Origin: Desulfuromonas sp. SDB
Lineage (GTDB): Bacteria > SDB-A
Assembly: GCA_001412365.1 (NCBI GenBank)
Contig: LKUE01000324.1
Coordinates: 1-5,894, forward strand
Length of the DNA: 5,894 nt
Direction of reading: 5' to 3'
How positions within the stretch are numbered: the stretch's first letter is position 1; the number at the start of each line of letters is the position of its first letter. This document shows positions 1 through 5,894 of the stretch, piece by piece. The translations under genes were made by a program, and so were the position numbers. The notes beneath the pieces were generated by a model. It searched no databases. It was not told the DNA's origin and was given only the letters and a program-made list of their open reading frames with translations.

Positions 1-174
1 CTGACAGGCAAGTCCTTTAAAAAACAGCAAGTCAGAATGCTGATTGAGTAAATTATGTTGTTCAGTGAGGGGCAGGTACTTACTTACCAAATCTAAAATC
101 TGATCAGGTGATAATTTTCGATGTTCTTTAAAATCAGCAATAGCCTCATTAATTTGTTGTTCAATTTCTTTCAA
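1..174 (-). CDS. N-terminal 58 residues of an unrecognised helical protein, cut by the window edge
   Basis: This reading frame is open from a TTG at 172-174 to the left edge. TTG is the only sensible start: an in-frame TGA lies two codons upstream, and a GGGTGAG ribosome-binding-like stretch sits about six bases before it. The GTG a few bases upstream is in another frame and stops after seven codons. The visible protein begins LKEIEQQINEAIADF and is rich in Glu, Gln, Leu and Lys, with no signal peptide or membrane segment. It looks like amphipathic helices. The last visible stretch (SDLLFFKGLACQ) resembles the first helix of a TPR-type helical repeat, but that is only an impression. It lies 84 bp downstream of the cyclase on the same strand, so it could be co-transcribed with it or use the weak promoter noted in the gap. 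Function unknown. I am fairly sure that it is coding, because codon use and start context are consistent. Confidence 0.6.
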   Translation of the reverse strand, partial: MKEIEQQINEAIADFKEHRKLSPDQILDLVSKYLPLTEQHNLLNQHSDLLFFKGLACQ

Positions 175-216
175 CTTTACTCACCCAACGGATTATTAAG
201 TTTACCTTTACCGTGC

Positions 217-246
217 TTTCTAATTTAAGTTTACCTTAAATGACAA
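217..246 (-). promoter_or_regulatory. Candidate promoter for the TTG-started gene
   Basis: On the minus strand, TTGTCA (241-246, five of six matches to the -35 consensus) is followed after 18 bp by TAGAAA (217-222, four of six matches to the -10 consensus). This would start transcription near position 210 and give a leader of about 36 bases before the TTG start. The -10 box is weak and the local sequence is AT-rich, so chance similarity is possible. The spacer coincides with the inverted repeat at 223-241. Confidence 0.3.
223..241. repeat. Perfect 7-bp inverted repeat, possible operator
   Basis: The arms ATTTAAG (223-229) and CTTAAAT (235-241) are perfect inverted complements around the 5-base centre TTTAC. 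The repeat lies between the candidate -35 and -10 boxes of the downstream gene, a classic place for a repressor operator. As RNA it would be a weak AT stem without a following U-run, so an intrinsic terminator is unlikely. Confidence 0.4.
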
Positions 247-258
247 AAAAAATGAATT

Positions 259-3200
259 TTACCTTGAATAAAACAAACATTGAATTTCCTGGATTTTATT
301 TTTTATCTCCATGGTCTTCTTGGTTTCATCTAAATCATTTAATAAGCTTAAACTAATTTGTTTAAATTTTTCCCTGTCAAATTTATGTTCAACCTTAACA
401 TTATACAATAATTTGGTAAATTCATAAAAACCTAAAGCTTTGTACAATCCCTCCTGGATGTTATTGATAAAATCCAGCATTAATTGAAGATGTTTGTTTA
501 AATCAGATGGCGAAGTGTTAGCTAATATCATAATCTTGTTAATTAAAATTTCAGATTTATAAAAGATTTCCTTATGATTTTGTTTCTGAGATAGTTCAGA
601 AGCCTGCCGGGCAATTGATTCAGCATTATCATAGTGTTTTAACTGAAAGTTCCATTCCGCCTTTAAATACAATGCATGGCTTAAATAATAGTTTAAATTA
701 TGCTTGATACTGAGCTTTTCAGCTAATTCAGCAAATAAAATTACCTGATCCCAATTATCCCATATTTTGTTTATTTTTGCTTTCTGCAAATACAGCACTA
801 TTTTTAGAAGTGGATTCGCCATCTTTTTAATATAAACTTCCGCTTGGTTAAGGTGATCCATAGCAGCTTGATACTGACCTTGGTCATAGTAAATAAGTTC
901 TAAATATCCATATCCTAATGCTAAAACATGCAAATCCTTTAGATCTTCAGCTAATTTCAAACCTTGGTTAATCCATTTTTTAGCTTGTTCAATATTTCCC
1001 AGGTTGCTATAGATGTTTCCTATATTCATACTGGCACTAGCTACTCCCTTTTTATCACCAATTTTTTTTCGGAATTTTAAATTTTCTTGATAATGTTCTA
1101 TAGCTAAATCCAGTTTCCCCATTTCAAAATAAACTGTACCTAAATTTCCAGTAGTTATGGCAATAGATCTTTTATTTCCCACTTTTTCAAATAAGCATAA
1201 CGCTTGTTTGAAGTAATTTTCAGCTTTATCAAATTCTCTTTTATTCAAAAAAACCATTCCCAAATTTCCTAAGGCAGATCCTAATTTATCTTTATCATCT
1301 AGATACTCAGTTAATTTTACTATTTTCCGATAATGCTGTTCAGCTTGGTCAAATTGACTGGTCTTTAATAAACTCATCCCAACGTTATTCAAACCGGAAA
1401 TTATTAATGAACGATCTTTAATTATTTCAGCCAATTTTAAGCTTTCTTTAAAGTTTTTTTTTGCAGTGGAGTAATCGGCTTGACTAAAATAAATTAAACC
1501 TAAATTATTAAAATAAACATAATTCCCTTTATTATCCTGGTAATTATCAAGGTATTTTTTTAGTTTTTTTAAATCTTGTAATGCTGATTCCCATTGACCA
1601 AGCAGGTTTTTTAAATCAACTGTTTGGTGGATAATTTCAATAACATCTTTAACCATAAATTCAATTTCGGATTCGGAATATTTAGCTGCATCAGAAATTT
1701 CATCCGGCTGTGGATAGTACTGTAAAAGAGTCTGGAAGTATTTTAAAGAAAGTTCATTTAAATAATTCTTCTTTGCATATTTCGCTGATTTCATTAAATA
1801 ATCTTTGATTTTATCTTCCACTTCCGCCCTGGTGTAATGTTCTAAAATTTCAAAGTAATATTCTTCTAAATTATCCTGATACAACTCCTCTAAAACCTGG
1901 CCGATATTCCGGTGAATTTTTCTAAGGGTTTGTTTCAGCTGCATCTGATAAGCTACTTCACACAGCAGCAGGTTGACAAAAGAATACAGATTCATTTGCT
2001 CATTTAACCATAGATTTTGACGAATACCCTGATCCAGTAAAAATTCAAGATAATCCTCCTGAATAATTTTTTTTAAAACAGCCAGAGAAAAACGGCTGCC
2101 AATCACTGCAGCAGTTTTGACCAGGTTTTTCAATCTAATCTCCAGCCGGTCAATACGAGACATTACTATTGAATTTATGGTGGAAGGGACTTGAAAATCA
2201 CCGTTAATTAATTCATTTTCCTCATCTAATAAATTATTTTCCATCATATATTGAGTAAGTTGTTTAATGTAAAATGGATTGCCACCGCTTTCCTTGTAAA
2301 TAAACTCCAGATGTTTCTCTGAAATTTCAGTAGAGCTGATGATATCCATAACAATACCCTTAGTTGCTTCTCTATCTAAATTTTTCAACTCCAGTCTGGA
2401 GGTTTGAACATTATCAATATTTAAATCAATTAATTCACCATTATCTCTTCTCCGGCAGGTAGCAATTACCAACAGCGGATATTGTCCAATTCCAGTCAGC
2501 AAATAATTAATAAATTTTAAACCATCATTATCTATATGCTGGATATCTTCAATTCTCAGCACCACCGGACCAGTTAGAGTTTTAGCGATAATCATATTTT
2601 TCATAGCCTGGAATATGTTGTTGTACCTTTCCCTGGGGCTAAGAGTTTCATATAGTGATCCTTCCCAGAAAATACCAAGTAAAGCTCCAATCATGGATTT
2701 GGTTCTGATCAATTCATCCTTGATTTCTTGATCCGGGCAGGTTGAAATCAACTCCTGGTAAATTTGTTGAAATTTCTCTAATTTACTGTGTTCTCCGGTT
2801 TCCAAAAAGAAATAGTTTTTCAGCCAAAAAATAAATGGATTGAAACTGGTTGGGATAATCGGATTGCAGAGACAGTTCAACCAGGAGATATCACCATGGT
2901 GGTATATTTTTTGAACCTCGTCCAACAGATGAGTCTTGCCAGCTCCCATGTCTCCATCTATATAAACAATTCCCTGGAAATCACAACTATTTAGAAGATC
3001 ATCAATCCTTTGTTTTAAAAACTTTATTGAATCATTTCTGCCAAAAGTTTTTAAATCAGATATTTTTGTCAGAAAATTGGATGCACTGTAACTTGATTTC
3101 AACTGGTAGACGCTTTCCGCATTTGAAAAACCTTTGAAATTTTTTTTACCCAGGTTTACTATTTCAAACTTTTTATCAGATTGCTTGGCTAAAGCTTGAT

Positions 3201-4272
3201 TTATATGTATCTGTCCAGGATTGGCTCCTGTCATCATCCGGGCAGCTAAGTTAACCGAACTTCCCTGGGCTGTATATTCTGCCCGGGAGTTACTGCCGAT
3301 AAAACCGGTAAAAGCACGTCCATAGGTCATTCCAATTTTCAGGGAAGCAGATAGATTTAAAATTTTCAAAGCAAAACTGCAGCTTCTCTCCACTATGTCT
3401 TCAGGAGTGACAGGAGCTCCAAAGAATATCAGGACAAAACATCCCTTGTCCCCAAAATTCACTCGGTTGAAATACCCCTGATACCTATCAGTCCATTTAA
3501 TAATATCAGATATCAAATGATCTTTATCCGGTTCCCCGGAGATTGATATAAAACAACTGATCACGTCTCTGAATTCATTAACCTGTCCGGTTAGTAAAAT
3601 TTCCGGATAAAATTTATTCTGAACCTCTTTTCCCAGTGTTTTTCTTTGGTGCTTGGTTGGTGATGAGGGAATTAGTGCAGTTAATTTACAGTACTTATCA
3701 TCAACTTTCCGAGTGCGGATATTAAGCTCAGCGGGATTAATTTTTTCAATAAATTCACCGGGGAAAATAATTTCATTTTTCCGGGCTTTTTTTTCAGATT
3801 CAGATGCCTGGTTAATTGCAGAACCGGCATAATAGTAAGCATAGTGGTTATCCTGCCCAATAATTTTCCAATTGATATCTCCGTATCCCAGTCCAATTTT
3901 TACTGAAATCAGATAGTCCCCGAATTTAGTCCTGAAATGTTCAATTTTGGCAAAACTTTGCCGGTTTTTCCAAGCGGAGATAAATAATTCAGACAAGCAG
4001 TTAACTTTTCCCGGAAATACCGCATTAAATGCATCTCCTGCAAAATGGGTAATAAATCCGTAGTTTTCATAGACAATTTGAACTGCGGGAGTGAAAATTT
4101 CATTGATTGCCTGGGCAATCAACTCCGCACCTTCCTGCCCATTTTTCATCAACTCCTGGGTCATTCTGGTGAATCCGGAAGTGTCCACAAACATCACTCC
4201 GCCTTTAAAAGATCCCTGGTAATTATTATTGCGGAAATCTACACCAATATTGTATGGAATTAAATTCCTCAC
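259..4272 (-). CDS. Soluble-adenylyl-cyclase-like protein: two class III cyclase domains, P-loop NTPase, TPR array
   Basis: A 1337-aa protein expected to make cAMP from ATP in the cytoplasm; no signal peptide or membrane segment is visible. Cyclase domain C1 spans about residues 24-175, with FVDTSGFT (metal Asp30) and FAGDAF (metal Asp80). Domain C2 spans about 235-392, with GDKGCF (Lys276, base recognition), EYT (Thr334, the class IIIb position) and VNLAARMM (Asn341 and Arg345, transition state). Together they complete one heterodimer-type active site, as in human sAC. A STAND/AAA_16-type NTPase follows: Walker A GDMGAGKT (440-447), Walker B VVLRIED (570-576), VIATCRR (602-608), the GGNPFYI motif (663-669) and a winged-helix-like stretch near 696-740. 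Helical repeats begin near 820, and regular 40-residue TPRs run from about 878 to 1237. Human sAC is somewhat longer, about 1600 residues. The start is uncertain: the GTG at 4270-4272 lacks a clear upstream ribosome binding site. It lies 54 bp after the secreted-protein gene, with no visible terminator between them, so an operon is likely. cGMP as product is less likely. Confidence 0.9.
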   Translation of the reverse strand: MRNLIPYNIGVDFRNNNYQGSFKGGVMFVDTSGFTRMTQELMKNGQEGAELIAQAINEIFTPAVQIVYENYGFITHFAGDAFNAVFPGKVNCLSELFISAWKNRQSFAKIEHFRTKFGDYLISVKIGLGYGDINWKIIGQDNHYAYYYAGSAINQASESEKKARKNEIIFPGEFIEKINPAELNIRTRKVDDKYCKLTALIPSSPTKHQRKTLGKEVQNKFYPEILLTGQVNEFRDVISCFISISGEPDKDHLISDIIKWTDRYQGYFNRVNFGDKGCFVLIFFGAPVTPEDIVERSCSFALKILNLSASLKIGMTYGRAFTGFIGSNSRAEYTAQGSSVNLAARMMTGANPGQIHINQALAKQSDKKFEIVNLGKKNFKGFSNAESVYQLKSSYSASNFLTKISDLKTFGRNDSIKFLKQRIDDLLNSCDFQGIVYIDGDMGAGKTHLLDEVQKIYHHGDISWLNCLCNPIIPTSFNPFIFWLKNYFFLETGEHSKLEKFQQIYQELISTCPDQEIKDELIRTKSMIGALLGIFWEGSLYETLSPRERYNNIFQAMKNMIIAKTLTGPVVLRIEDIQHIDNDGLKFINYLLTGIGQYPLLVIATCRRRDNGELIDLNIDNVQTSRLELKNLDREATKGIVMDIISSTEISEKHLEFIYKESGGNPFYIKQLTQYMMENNLLDEENELINGDFQVPSTINSIVMSRIDRLEIRLKNLVKTAAVIGSRFSLAVLKKIIQEDYLEFLLDQGIRQNLWLNEQMNLYSFVNLLLCEVAYQMQLKQTLRKIHRNIGQVLEELYQDNLEEYYFEILEHYTRAEVEDKIKDYLMKSAKYAKKNYLNELSLKYFQTLLQYYPQPDEISDAAKYSESEIEFMVKDVIEIIHQTVDLKNLLGQWESALQDLKKLKKYLDNYQDNKGNYVYFNNLGLIYFSQADYSTAKKNFKESLKLAEIIKDRSLIISGLNNVGMSLLKTSQFDQAEQHYRKIVKLTEYLDDKDKLGSALGNLGMVFLNKREFDKAENYFKQALCLFEKVGNKRSIAITTGNLGTVYFEMGKLDLAIEHYQENLKFRKKIGDKKGVASASMNIGNIYSNLGNIEQAKKWINQGLKLAEDLKDLHVLALGYGYLELIYYDQGQYQAAMDHLNQAEVYIKKMANPLLKIVLYLQKAKINKIWDNWDQVILFAELAEKLSIKHNLNYYLSHALYLKAEWNFQLKHYDNAESIARQASELSQKQNHKEIFYKSEILINKIMILANTSPSDLNKHLQLMLDFINNIQEGLYKALGFYEFTKLLYNVKVEHKFDREKFKQISLSLLNDLDETKKTMEIKNKIQEIQCLFYSR
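562..1641 (-). repeat. TPR-encoding array with exact 120-bp period
   Basis: This part of the cyclase gene encodes about nine tetratricopeptide units (residues 878-1237). The small residue at TPR position 8 falls at G925, G965, G1005, G1045, G1085, E1125, A1165 and A1205, an exact 40-residue step. The usual position-20 Ala appears at 897, 937 and onward. The NLG-type motif leaves a DNA echo: related CCTAAATTTCC-like words at 1139, 1259, 1379 and 1499 on the plus strand. Forty-residue TPRs are typical of NTPase-coupled and kinesin-light-chain-like arrays and usually bind proteins. The last units (after about residue 1150) are degenerate. Confidence 0.85.
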
Positions 4273-4273
4273 C
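4267..4273 (-). promoter_or_regulatory. GGTGAGG ribosome-binding-like sequence overlapping the annotated cyclase start
   Basis: The only Shine-Dalgarno-like stretch near the start of the cyclase gene, GGTGAGG, overlaps the GTG codon itself instead of preceding it. Six bases after its GAGG lies ATT (4258-4260, residue Ile5), a rare initiation codon. In-frame upstream codons back to the TAA include only CTG as an alternative, and the next ATG (Met27) lies inside the first strand of the cyclase fold. Initiation is therefore at the GTG with poor context, or at the ATT with good context. The difference is four residues. Confidence 0.35.
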
Positions 4274-4326
4274 AGATCATCAGCTGTGGTTGTTAGTTAA
4301 AATGTCAACAATTGATTTAAATGATA

Positions 4327-4911
4327 TCAATCAACAAACTGGATAGTAAACCTTTTAAATTCTCCCTGATCTATTATATTATCAAGATCTTGGTCGTAGT
4401 AGTAGATCAGATAGACAAATTGGGAGTCAAAATTCTCAATATCCTGTTTAATTTCTCCTTGGATATTGTCAACGGTCCAACCCAACTGCAGAGTTTTTCC
4501 ATCAACCCTTATCAGTTCAGCTCTGCTTATATCCGGATTTTCCAAATCATAGAAAAGGTAATGGCAGGCGTGCTCATTTAAATAAAGAGAAGAATAAATT
4601 CCCGCGGCAGCCAGACCTGCTCCCGGAAAGAAAAACTGAGTTTGTTCAGTATGATCTCCAGGCTGAATATTGAAAATATCCGGATTTAATGAGGCAGTAA
4701 TTCTTGCAGCATACCACCTGTCCTGTTCAGCATTGTAGTCATCAACGGTGAAGTTAATTTTAAAGGGAAGTTTTTCCAATACTAAACTATCCTGATCAGC
4801 TATATTAAATTGCTGAGAACCCTGGATTAACCACAATTCCGATACTTCTTCTGCGGAAAGTACATTGATGGATAATACCATCATCATAATCATAAATATT
4901 ATATTTTTCAT
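4327..4911 (-). CDS. Secreted 194-aa protein with an EF-hand-like loop
   Basis: I do not recognise a family. The start is firm: ATG with AAGGAG six bases upstream. Residues 1-20 form a signal peptide with a short positive N-terminus, a hydrophobic Met/Ile/Val/Leu core and a likely signal peptidase I site after LSA (20); there is no lipobox Cys. The mature part (about 174 residues) is acidic, rich in aromatic residues and looks mostly beta-stranded, with a Gly/Ala-rich patch at 97-104. Residues 173-184 read DQDLDNIIDQGE, with acidic residues at loop positions 1, 3, 5, 9 and 12 and Ile at 8. This is the calcium-coordinating pattern of EF-hand and dockerin-type loops; the usual Gly at position 6 is Asn. 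Two Cys are absent except for a single Cys116, so no internal disulfide is expected. It is the first gene of a probable two-gene unit with the cyclase. Expected location: outside the cytoplasmic membrane. Confidence 0.8.
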   Translation of the reverse strand: MKNIIFMIMMMVLSINVLSAEEVSELWLIQGSQQFNIADQDSLVLEKLPFKINFTVDDYNAEQDRWYAARITASLNPDIFNIQPGDHTEQTQFFFPGAGLAAAGIYSSLYLNEHACHYLFYDLENPDISRAELIRVDGKTLQLGWTVDNIQGEIKQDIENFDSQFVYLIYYYDQDLDNIIDQGEFKRFTIQFVD

Positions 4912-4917
4912 TTATAT

Positions 4918-4923
4918 CTCCTT
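4918..4923 (-). promoter_or_regulatory. Strong ribosome binding site AAGGAG
   Basis: AAGGAG lies six bases before the ATG of the 194-aa secreted protein. It fixes that start and indicates conventional Shine-Dalgarno initiation in this organism, in contrast to the cyclase and the plus-strand gene, which lack such a site. Confidence 0.85.
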
Positions 4924-4939
4924 AAAAACCAATTTAATG

Positions 4940-4958
4940 TTCAAATTAGGAATTTGAA
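4940..4958. repeat. Perfect 8-bp inverted repeat at the predicted transcription start
   Basis: The arms TTCAAATT (4940-4947) and AATTTGAA (4951-4958) are perfect inverted complements around AGG. The repeat overlaps the transcription start predicted from the minus-strand promoter (about 4957). It could be a dimeric repressor's operator or a hairpin at the 5' end of the mRNA. With 7 of 8 pairs being A-T, an RNA hairpin would be weak, which favours a DNA-level role. Confidence 0.45.
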
Positions 4959-4963
4959 AAATA

Positions 4964-4991
4964 AATATAACAGGTTTAAGCTAAATAGCAA
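4964..4991 (-). promoter_or_regulatory. Predicted extended -10 promoter for the secreted protein and cyclase
   Basis: On the minus strand, TTGCTA (4986-4991, four of six to consensus), a 16-bp spacer and TATATT (4964-4969, five of six) are visible, with TG one base before the -10 box (extended -10, TGTTATATT). Transcription would start near 4957, leaving a leader of about 46 bases with the AAGGAG site at its end. Because no terminator is visible after the 194-aa gene, this is also the likely main promoter of the cyclase gene. Confidence 0.55.
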
Positions 4992-4995
4992 AATA

Positions 4996-5024
4996 TTGTT
5001 ATCTAATATTTTTAATAATATAAT
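4996..5024 (+). promoter_or_regulatory. Predicted promoter for the holin/phosphodiesterase gene
   Basis: TTGTTA (4996-5001, four of six to the -35 consensus), an optimal 17-bp spacer and a perfect TATAAT (5019-5024). Transcription would start near 5031, leaving a leader of only about 16 bases before the ATG, without a Shine-Dalgarno sequence. The -35 box is separated by only four bases from the -35 box of the divergent promoter. Confidence 0.6.
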
Positions 5025-5046
5025 CATCTAAAATTAAATAAATGTT

Positions 5047-5894
5047 ATGATAAGCTGGATTAGAAGAGTAATAATTGTTTGGTCTGGTGAATTTACCAGT
5101 CTGATTTTATTATCCTATATACTGCCTAACTTTAAAATTACCCAGTGGTGGTATGCTCTGATCGCGGTAGTGGTAATCAGCCTGCTAAATGCAGTATTAA
5201 GACCTCTGCTGATCAAGCTGACCCTGCCCATTACCGTCTTTTCGCTGGGATTATTTTCTGTGGGACTAAATGCTCTGGTAATTTCCATAGCCGGTTATTT
5301 AATTCCGGGAATTGAAATCACCCACCCCCTCACTCCACTGGTAATCACCTTAGTGCTTTCCACAGTTAATACTCTTATTTGTAATCTTCTTTCTCTGGAT
5401 GATGAAAATCCCTTCTACCGGAATATTATTGTAAAATACAACCAAATTGTTAAATCCAAAAATAATTCAGGTAAACCCGGATTAATAATTCTAGAAATTG
5501 ACGGTTTAAGTTTTAAAAGTATCCGTAAAGCTATTGAACAAAATTACATGCCCAATGTCAGAAATTGGATCCACTGGGGAAGTCATAAGCTGATAAAATG
5601 GGACTGCGGAATTCCCTCCCAAACTTCTTCCAGTCAAGCCGGCATCTTATTCGGAGATAATTATGATATTCCCGGTTTCAGGTGGTATAACAAAAAAGAA
5701 AAAAGGCTGATTGTTTCCACCAACCCGTTAAATGCTGCTGAAATTGAACAAAAAATATTTAATAATCAGGGATTGCTTGCAGATAACGGATCGGGATTTT
5801 GTAATATGTTTTCCGGGCAAGCTTCTAAAAATGTCCTTACCTTAAGCCGCATCAATGAACTGGGCAAAGGCTTTCAAAAAAATATGGATTACTT
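5047..5894 (+). CDS. Membrane protein: Phage_holin_4_2-type domain fused to type I phosphodiesterase/alkaline-phosphatase-like domain, 3' end cut off
   Basis: 282 complete codons are visible, open to the right edge. Residues 1-115 hold about four hydrophobic segments (near 8-28, 34-55, 60-86 and 96-115), with NAVLRPLL and LPITVFSLGLF, the hallmark of the small 4-TM 'phage holin' family (PF04020). A soluble domain starts at about residue 143. LIILEIDGL contains the probable first metal ligand Asp152, and PSQTSSSQAG (190-199) carries the candidate nucleophile Thr193. Next come PGFRWYNK (210-217) and GLLADNGSG. This combination is known in bacterial proteins annotated as 'phage holin family protein' with a phosphodiesterase/nucleotide-pyrophosphatase-like domain. 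The natural substrate is not established, though a phospho-ester at the envelope is likely. The name does not imply a prophage or lysis role, and no phage genes are near. An in-frame TAA at 5035-5037 rules out an upstream start; no ribosome binding site precedes the ATG. The remaining catalytic metal ligands lie beyond the window. Confidence 0.85.
   Translation, partial: MISWIRRVIIVWSGEFTSLILLSYILPNFKITQWWYALIAVVVISLLNAVLRPLLIKLTLPITVFSLGLFSVGLNALVISIAGYLIPGIEITHPLTPLVITLVLSTVNTLICNLLSLDDENPFYRNIIVKYNQIVKSKNNSGKPGLIILEIDGLSFKSIRKAIEQNYMPNVRNWIHWGSHKLIKWDCGIPSQTSSSQAGILFGDNYDIPGFRWYNKKEKRLIVSTNPLNAAEIEQKIFNNQGLLADNGSGFCNMFSGQASKNVLTLSRINELGKGFQKNMDY

Follow-up and report, generated by a model that had tools for sequence, protein, structure and literature searches.

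Analysis of a 5,894-nucleotide stretch of the genome of Desulfuromonas sp. SDB (contig LKUE01000324.1, positions 1 to 5,894; hereafter the window) identified a gene whose product is probably a bacterial adenylyl cyclase of the soluble adenylyl cyclase (sAC) type, in which two cyclase domains of one chain, C1 and C2, would build a single active site that has no bicarbonate switch, is controlled by a STAND NTPase with tetratricopeptide repeats (TPRs), and supplies cyclic AMP (cAMP) to proteins that bind cyclic nucleoside monophosphates (cNMPs). The architecture, fold, kinship, residue states and copy number of this double cyclase, as well as the presence of cNMP-binding proteins in the cell, were computed here.

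The open reading frame (ORF) of the gene lies on the minus strand at 259..4272 and encodes 1337 amino acids (aa) from a GTG start; the start M[RK]NLIP is common to most paralogues and falls at the same position as that of the window gene. Against Pfam, Guanylate_cyc (PF00211) matched two stretches of the protein (E 4.3e-18, best stretch 309-392), AAA_16 matched residues 410-603, and the TPR region was recognised by TPR_12 (E 6.8e-32) and TPR_MalT (5.7e-18). All features of the gene being on the minus strand, the C1 domain (residues about 18-180) is located at 3733..4221, the C2 domain (about 228-394) at 3091..3591, the STAND NTPase with its helical, winged-helix and arm regions (about 410-875) at 1648..3045, and the TPR array (about 920-1231) at 580..1515. 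The Walker A motif GDMGAGKT (residues 440-447, 2932..2955), whose glycines and lysine are invariant in the alignment, and the Walker B motif LRIEDIQ (2539..2559, placed by alignment) fall inside the NTPase. The protein thus displays the cyclase-cyclase-STAND NTPase-TPR order of sAC-type double cyclases. This order had been noticed in an initial reading of the window made from the letters alone (the sequence-only reading), and Pfam, phmmer and structural models bore it out; the motif positions given there, FVDTSGFT at 28-35, FAGDA at 77-81, FGAP at 284-287 and VNLAARMM at 340-347, were exact, and we additionally located NRVNFGDKGC at 269-278 and EYTAQG at 332-337. With PF00211, the metal-binding aspartates D30 and D80, the transition-state pair N341/R345 and the modelled fold, the protein is a class III nucleotidyl cyclase; with the Walker A and B motifs, a GNPF motif, a MalT/Apaf-1-like fold and TPRs after the NTPase, it also has the features of a STAND NTPase with a TPR sensor.

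Among solved structures, the best cyclase match of both halves was human ADCY10, that is, sAC (phmmer, E 2.6e-23); query residues 18-172 aligned to sAC 35-191 and residues 215-390 to sAC 275-461, so that C1 fell on C1 and C2 on C2. An AlphaFold2 model of residues 1-395, built from the window sequence and ten relatives, had a pLDDT of 90.5 and a pTM of 0.89. The first 24 Foldseek matches of this model were all human sAC (E 2e-32 to 1e-28), and the next were membrane cyclases (tmACs, E 2e-18). VIA-align superposed the model on human sAC with a Z of 41.6 and an rmsd of 2.6 A, 380 residues of a single chain being aligned across 1-395 at 27% identity; the values for AC9 were Z 36.6 and 15% identity. 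The superposition on human C1-C2, which had been proposed as a check by the sequence-only reading, therefore showed that the model fits as a single unit and takes the sAC C1-C2 pseudo-dimer fold ahead of every other fold. Because both halves fit sAC simultaneously, the model leads one to expect that the catalytic residues of the two domains meet in one interface site. The single-domain cyclases CyaC of Spirulina (1wc0) and CyaB of Pseudomonas aeruginosa (3r5g) have the class III fold and the active-site chemistry in common with the window protein, but they carry one cyclase domain, must homodimerise, and match only one half of the model.

The relationship of the two halves was examined in a tree of 83 domains including 27 single-domain bacterial cyclases. 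All C1 halves, from the phylum of the organism, from other bacteria and from human together, formed one clade (100/99), and all C2 halves including human C2 formed another (99/95), both apart from the 27 single-domain cyclases; the bootstrap of this tree is not fully settled. Profile cross-scores agreed with the tree: human C1 scored 103.9 with the C1 profile versus 9.5 with the C2 profile, and human C2 scored 25.5 versus 109.2. Each half of the window protein groups with the matching half of sAC, and the likeness that had been read from the motifs hence reflects real kinship. It could be argued from the generic class III fold of both halves that the two domains stem from a tandem duplication that took place recently in bacteria, and that the resemblance to sAC is convergent; the domain tree rejected this origin, since the C1 and C2 rows, human ones included, fall into separate clades, and we regard it as practically negligible. 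Neither this tree nor the superposed model gave a result of the kind that the sequence-only reading had named as refuting it. We concluded that the C1-C2 pair is anciently shared with sAC.

To assign residue roles, the protein was aligned to human sAC (control row DKDKVRKDKTNR) and compared with a published functional table (PMC12867704 Table 1); the tallies below refer to 64 double-cyclase proteins. In C1, the metal ligands D30 (4183..4185; sAC D47) and D80 (4033..4035; sAC D99) are Asp in 61 and in all 64 proteins, respectively, and K125 (3898..3900; sAC K144), the pyrophosphate receptor according to the same table, is K in 48 and R in 14. In C2, the adenine-binding T334 (3271..3273; sAC T405) is Thr in 45 of the 64, N341 (3250..3252; sAC N412) is Asn in 61, and R345 (3238..3240; sAC R416), which contacts the alpha-phosphate, is Arg in 58. 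The same catalytic columns are kept in the 17 paralogues of the genome and in relatives from other genomes, far beyond chance. The column alignment supports the claim of the sequence-only reading that the catalytic roles are split between C1 and C2 within one chain; K125 was without mention there, and five of the six residues it named, D30, D80, T334, N341 and R345, were right. The sixth, K276 (3445..3447), was misassigned: in the FDKG loop named in the table it corresponds to sAC K340 and not to the lysine that recognises the base. The true counterpart of the base-recognising K334 is R270 (3463..3465), six residues before K276, so that the full catalytic set claimed for the protein is not supported; of the base-recognition pair of mammalian ADCY10, the threonine is kept and the lysine is Arg.

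With Arg270 at the base-reading position, the C1-C2 pair might be a nucleotide-binding pseudoenzyme or might make another cyclic nucleotide. This position is variable in the family (K in 25, R in 15 and other residues in 24 of the 64); degenerate paralogues exist, one in this genome (L119) and one in each of three related genomes (L115, L116 and L118); a similar two-domain fold (Z 26.1) is present in 6yii, a P. aeruginosa protein described as class III cyclase-like and ATP-binding, on which a literature search found nothing; and in Xanthomonas the product of a TPR-linked class III enzyme is cGMP (PMC3770947). On the contrary, all the metal and phosphate residues and Thr334 of the window protein are intact, and Arg270 retains the positive charge. 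Guanylyl cyclases read guanine by a Glu/Cys pair, and this pair is absent from the window protein. We consider a pseudoenzyme or a different product unlikely.

The bicarbonate-binding pair of mammalian ADCY10 is not preserved. The position of K95 is taken by H76 (4045..4047), Lys being found there in only 4 of the 64 proteins, and that of the switch residue R176 by S157 (3802..3804); Arg at the latter was seen in none of the 64 double cyclases and in none of the further bacterial survey genes added for this position. Since both residues are replaced and Arg176 is absent from the bacterial relatives, control of the sAC type by bicarbonate (HCO3-) is not expected, and from these residues regulation of the mammalian kind appears unlikely. 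Evolutionarily diverse sAC-like cyclases, one of them bacterial, have been reported to be regulated by HCO3- (review PMC3085406), but the sAC of sea urchin and of salmon, each without one of the two residues, escapes HCO3- control (PMC12867704). That the window protein is a bicarbonate sensor like mammalian sAC is, in our judgement, quite improbable.

The model of the region 390-880 (pLDDT 82) was closest to MalT (Z 23.8), PH0952 (22.9) and Apaf-1 (22.3), and for this reason we assigned the region to the STAND NTPases. MalT and PH0952, too, have an NTPase fold followed by TPRs; their effector is DNA-binding, whereas that of the window protein is the N-terminal cyclase. In the mechanism that we propose, C1 and C2 of one chain would wrap into a pseudo-dimer and form between them only one functional active site, where D30 and D80 would hold two metals, K125 would take the leaving pyrophosphate, N341 and R345 would act at the phosphates, and T334 and R270 would read the adenine. 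The mirror-image site would be degenerate and without K95 and R176, and therefore bicarbonate should not switch the enzyme. By analogy with the autoinhibition model of the STAND/TPR proteins MalT and PH0952 (PMC6468293), the STAND NTPase may be clamped by the arm and the TPR sensor until binding of a ligand or partner to the TPRs releases it, and this release might alter the geometry or the assembly of C1-C2; the STAND/TPR half would in this way control the cyclase. The predicted product, cAMP, would then be sensed by the small number of cNMP-binding proteins that the cell has.

Several points weigh against this interpretation. The synthesis of cAMP by C1-C2 is a predicted activity, and the substrate preference is likewise only a prediction, because the base-reading Lys is replaced by Arg. 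A bacterial cyclase that lacks the human residue pair could still be made responsive to bicarbonate in some other way. The C1-C2 model is not fully independent of the human sAC structures, which had been released by the time AlphaFold was trained. Furthermore, the cNMP-binding GGDEF protein described below adjoins relatives of the window gene and not the window gene itself.

The resemblance to human sAC comprises C1-C2 in one chain, the clade of each half, the counterparts of D47, D99, K144, T405, N412 and R416, the FDKG loop, and the C1-C2-NTPase order, a P-loop and predicted STAND region of sAC having been noted previously (PMC12802110). The window protein differs from it in lacking K95 and R176, in having Arg for K334, in an identity of 27% over the superposed residues, and in belonging to another subclade. 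In a concatenated tree of 49 double proteins, human sAC was found within an 11-row clade (100/94). Its companions there are L027, a double cyclase that the window's genome carries on contig C156, the L027 orthologues L107 and L109, and bacterial genes of other families. The window gene grouped with L010, L011 and L080 outside this clade, and a constraint joining human sAC with the window group was rejected (p-AU 0.0208, a value to be read with caution as the group was picked with the tree already in view and the human sequence forms a long branch). The window gene is thus not a member of the ADCY10 subclade, which is sAC proper with its metazoan members and their closest bacterial kin, and the suggestion of the sequence-only reading that it is a good candidate for the study of sAC origin is not supported; the C156 gene, judged by its sequence, is the better start for such work. 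This gene (L027, also L129; about 900-5205 of C156) has the same architecture as the window gene, is placed with human sAC by both trees, and carries Lys at the K95 position, Tyr at R176 and Val at K334.

A double-cyclase search of the contigs gave 18 strong matches in this genome of 3.14 Mb (98.7% complete, 433 contigs). Two of them are the halves of one gene split between two contigs, whose ends overlap by exactly 16 bases, and the number of genes is consequently 17. Extra to these is a degenerate 408-aa ORF on contig C250 (L119), which has two degenerate domains and no NTPase. Three other genomes of the same phylum gave 15-17 strong matches each, some being fragments; the gene number is about 15 in each. 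They also hold the degenerate double cyclases L115 (G002), L116 (G003) and L118 (G001), in which the first metal Asp is N, N and H, respectively, and the equivalents of the DKG and of Arg416 are lost; these are full-length and kept in all three related genomes, and from their sequences they are possibly pseudocyclase regulators. A single recent burst as the source of all copies was dropped, because the copies of the phylum are scattered in the tree (9 changes).

Genomes were also surveyed more widely in two non-random samples of 60 and 386 genomes. The double architecture was present in 42 of the 386 genomes, over about 30 family codes; this survey scored at most four candidates per genome, and its copy counts are lower bounds. 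Large sets were found elsewhere, with 15 matches in G108, 14 in G244 and nine each in G106 and G243, and for that reason the expansion was no longer taken to be peculiar to the phylum of the organism. On contig 136 of JAFGIG01, two dissimilar double-cyclase genes stand in tandem (L069, about 509-4500 and 4501-8215). Bacterial sAC-like double cyclases, among them those of a Lewinellaceae member (L070), an Anaerolineales member (L076) and Ca. Syntrophosphaera (L077), have the domain order, a length near 1300 aa and the catalytic columns in common with the window protein, from which they show no structural difference; the window gene is an ordinary member of the group, and its genome is unusually rich in copies. 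Such cyclases were described by Kobayashi, Buck and Levin in 2004, as cited in a review (PMC3085406), which also states that sAC is nearer to bacterial cyclases than to tmACs; a literature search for a Chloroflexus sAC found no paper. This kind of cyclase was known before and is widely distributed among bacteria, as the sequence-only reading had supposed in remarking that the architecture may not be new.

Beside these large cyclase sets, each of four genomes from the phylum holds only five cNMP-binding proteins. In G002 and G003, a cNMP-binding and GGDEF protein (L176 852-1955 and L175 814-1995, respectively) adjoins a double cyclase of the window subgroup divergently, which suggests a relay from a cyclic mononucleotide to c-di-GMP. 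On the other side of this gene, a TPR histidine kinase is convergent with it. The pairing is like that of XC_0250/XC_0249 in Xanthomonas campestris, in which a cNMP-GGDEF effector is linked to a TPR-bearing class III cyclase (PMC3770947). Since the messenger of the Xanthomonas pairing is cGMP, the identity of the product here, cAMP or other, is worth testing.

Upstream of the cyclase in the window, 54 bases from its start, the ORF list contains a 194-aa ORF with a signal-peptide-like start (4327..4911, minus strand), which had no Pfam or NCBIfam match and no homologue in four genomes of the phylum, and which is possibly co-transcribed with the cyclase. On the plus strand, a protein with a holin-superfamily-IV membrane domain (PF04020; 5047-5892) runs off the contig; after this domain, a stretch resembles, by eye only, alkaline-phosphatase/phosphodiesterase enzymes. 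Directly downstream of the cyclase is the start of an ORF (LKEIEQQINEAIADFKEHRK..., 1 to about 170, minus strand), cut by the contig end. We also considered an anti-phage cyclase of the Pycsar type, on account of weak local matches to PADLOC PycC models (best 2e-11). These matches are confined to the shared cyclase fold; the gene's neighbours in the window, the 194-aa ORF without a family match and the holin-4-type membrane protein, included no recognised Pycsar effector, although the view is cut short where the contig ends; the build, with two cyclase domains and STAND-TPR, is a different one; and 17 such genes in one genome suit general signalling. A Pycsar role is accordingly very improbable.

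Taken together, three findings are of some interest: many copies in a phylum of small genomes, the absence of the bicarbonate Arg from all bacterial relatives seen, and a sibling of the sAC lineage within the same genome. We put forward only tentatively, and as a rather doubtful extension, that much signalling throughout this candidate phylum runs via different sAC-type STAND-TPR cyclases, 15-18 of them in a genome of 2-3 Mb, which take separate inputs and all feed about five cNMP receptors, that one of these receptors, cNMP-GGDEF, relays to c-di-GMP, and that, with a double cyclase of the sAC lineage in the same genome, the ancestral bicarbonate-blind state of sAC is open to direct testing. 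The pairing of C1 with C2 known from animal sAC is ancient and occurs widely among bacteria. The missing R176 in the bacterial relatives examined agrees with a 2026 report of non-mammalian sAC without HCO3- control, and the bicarbonate switch looks like a late gain. The search for the bacterial root of sAC shifts away from the window gene to the orthogroup of contig C156, and a little-known phylum is found to hold an unusually large set of predicted cAMP enzymes.

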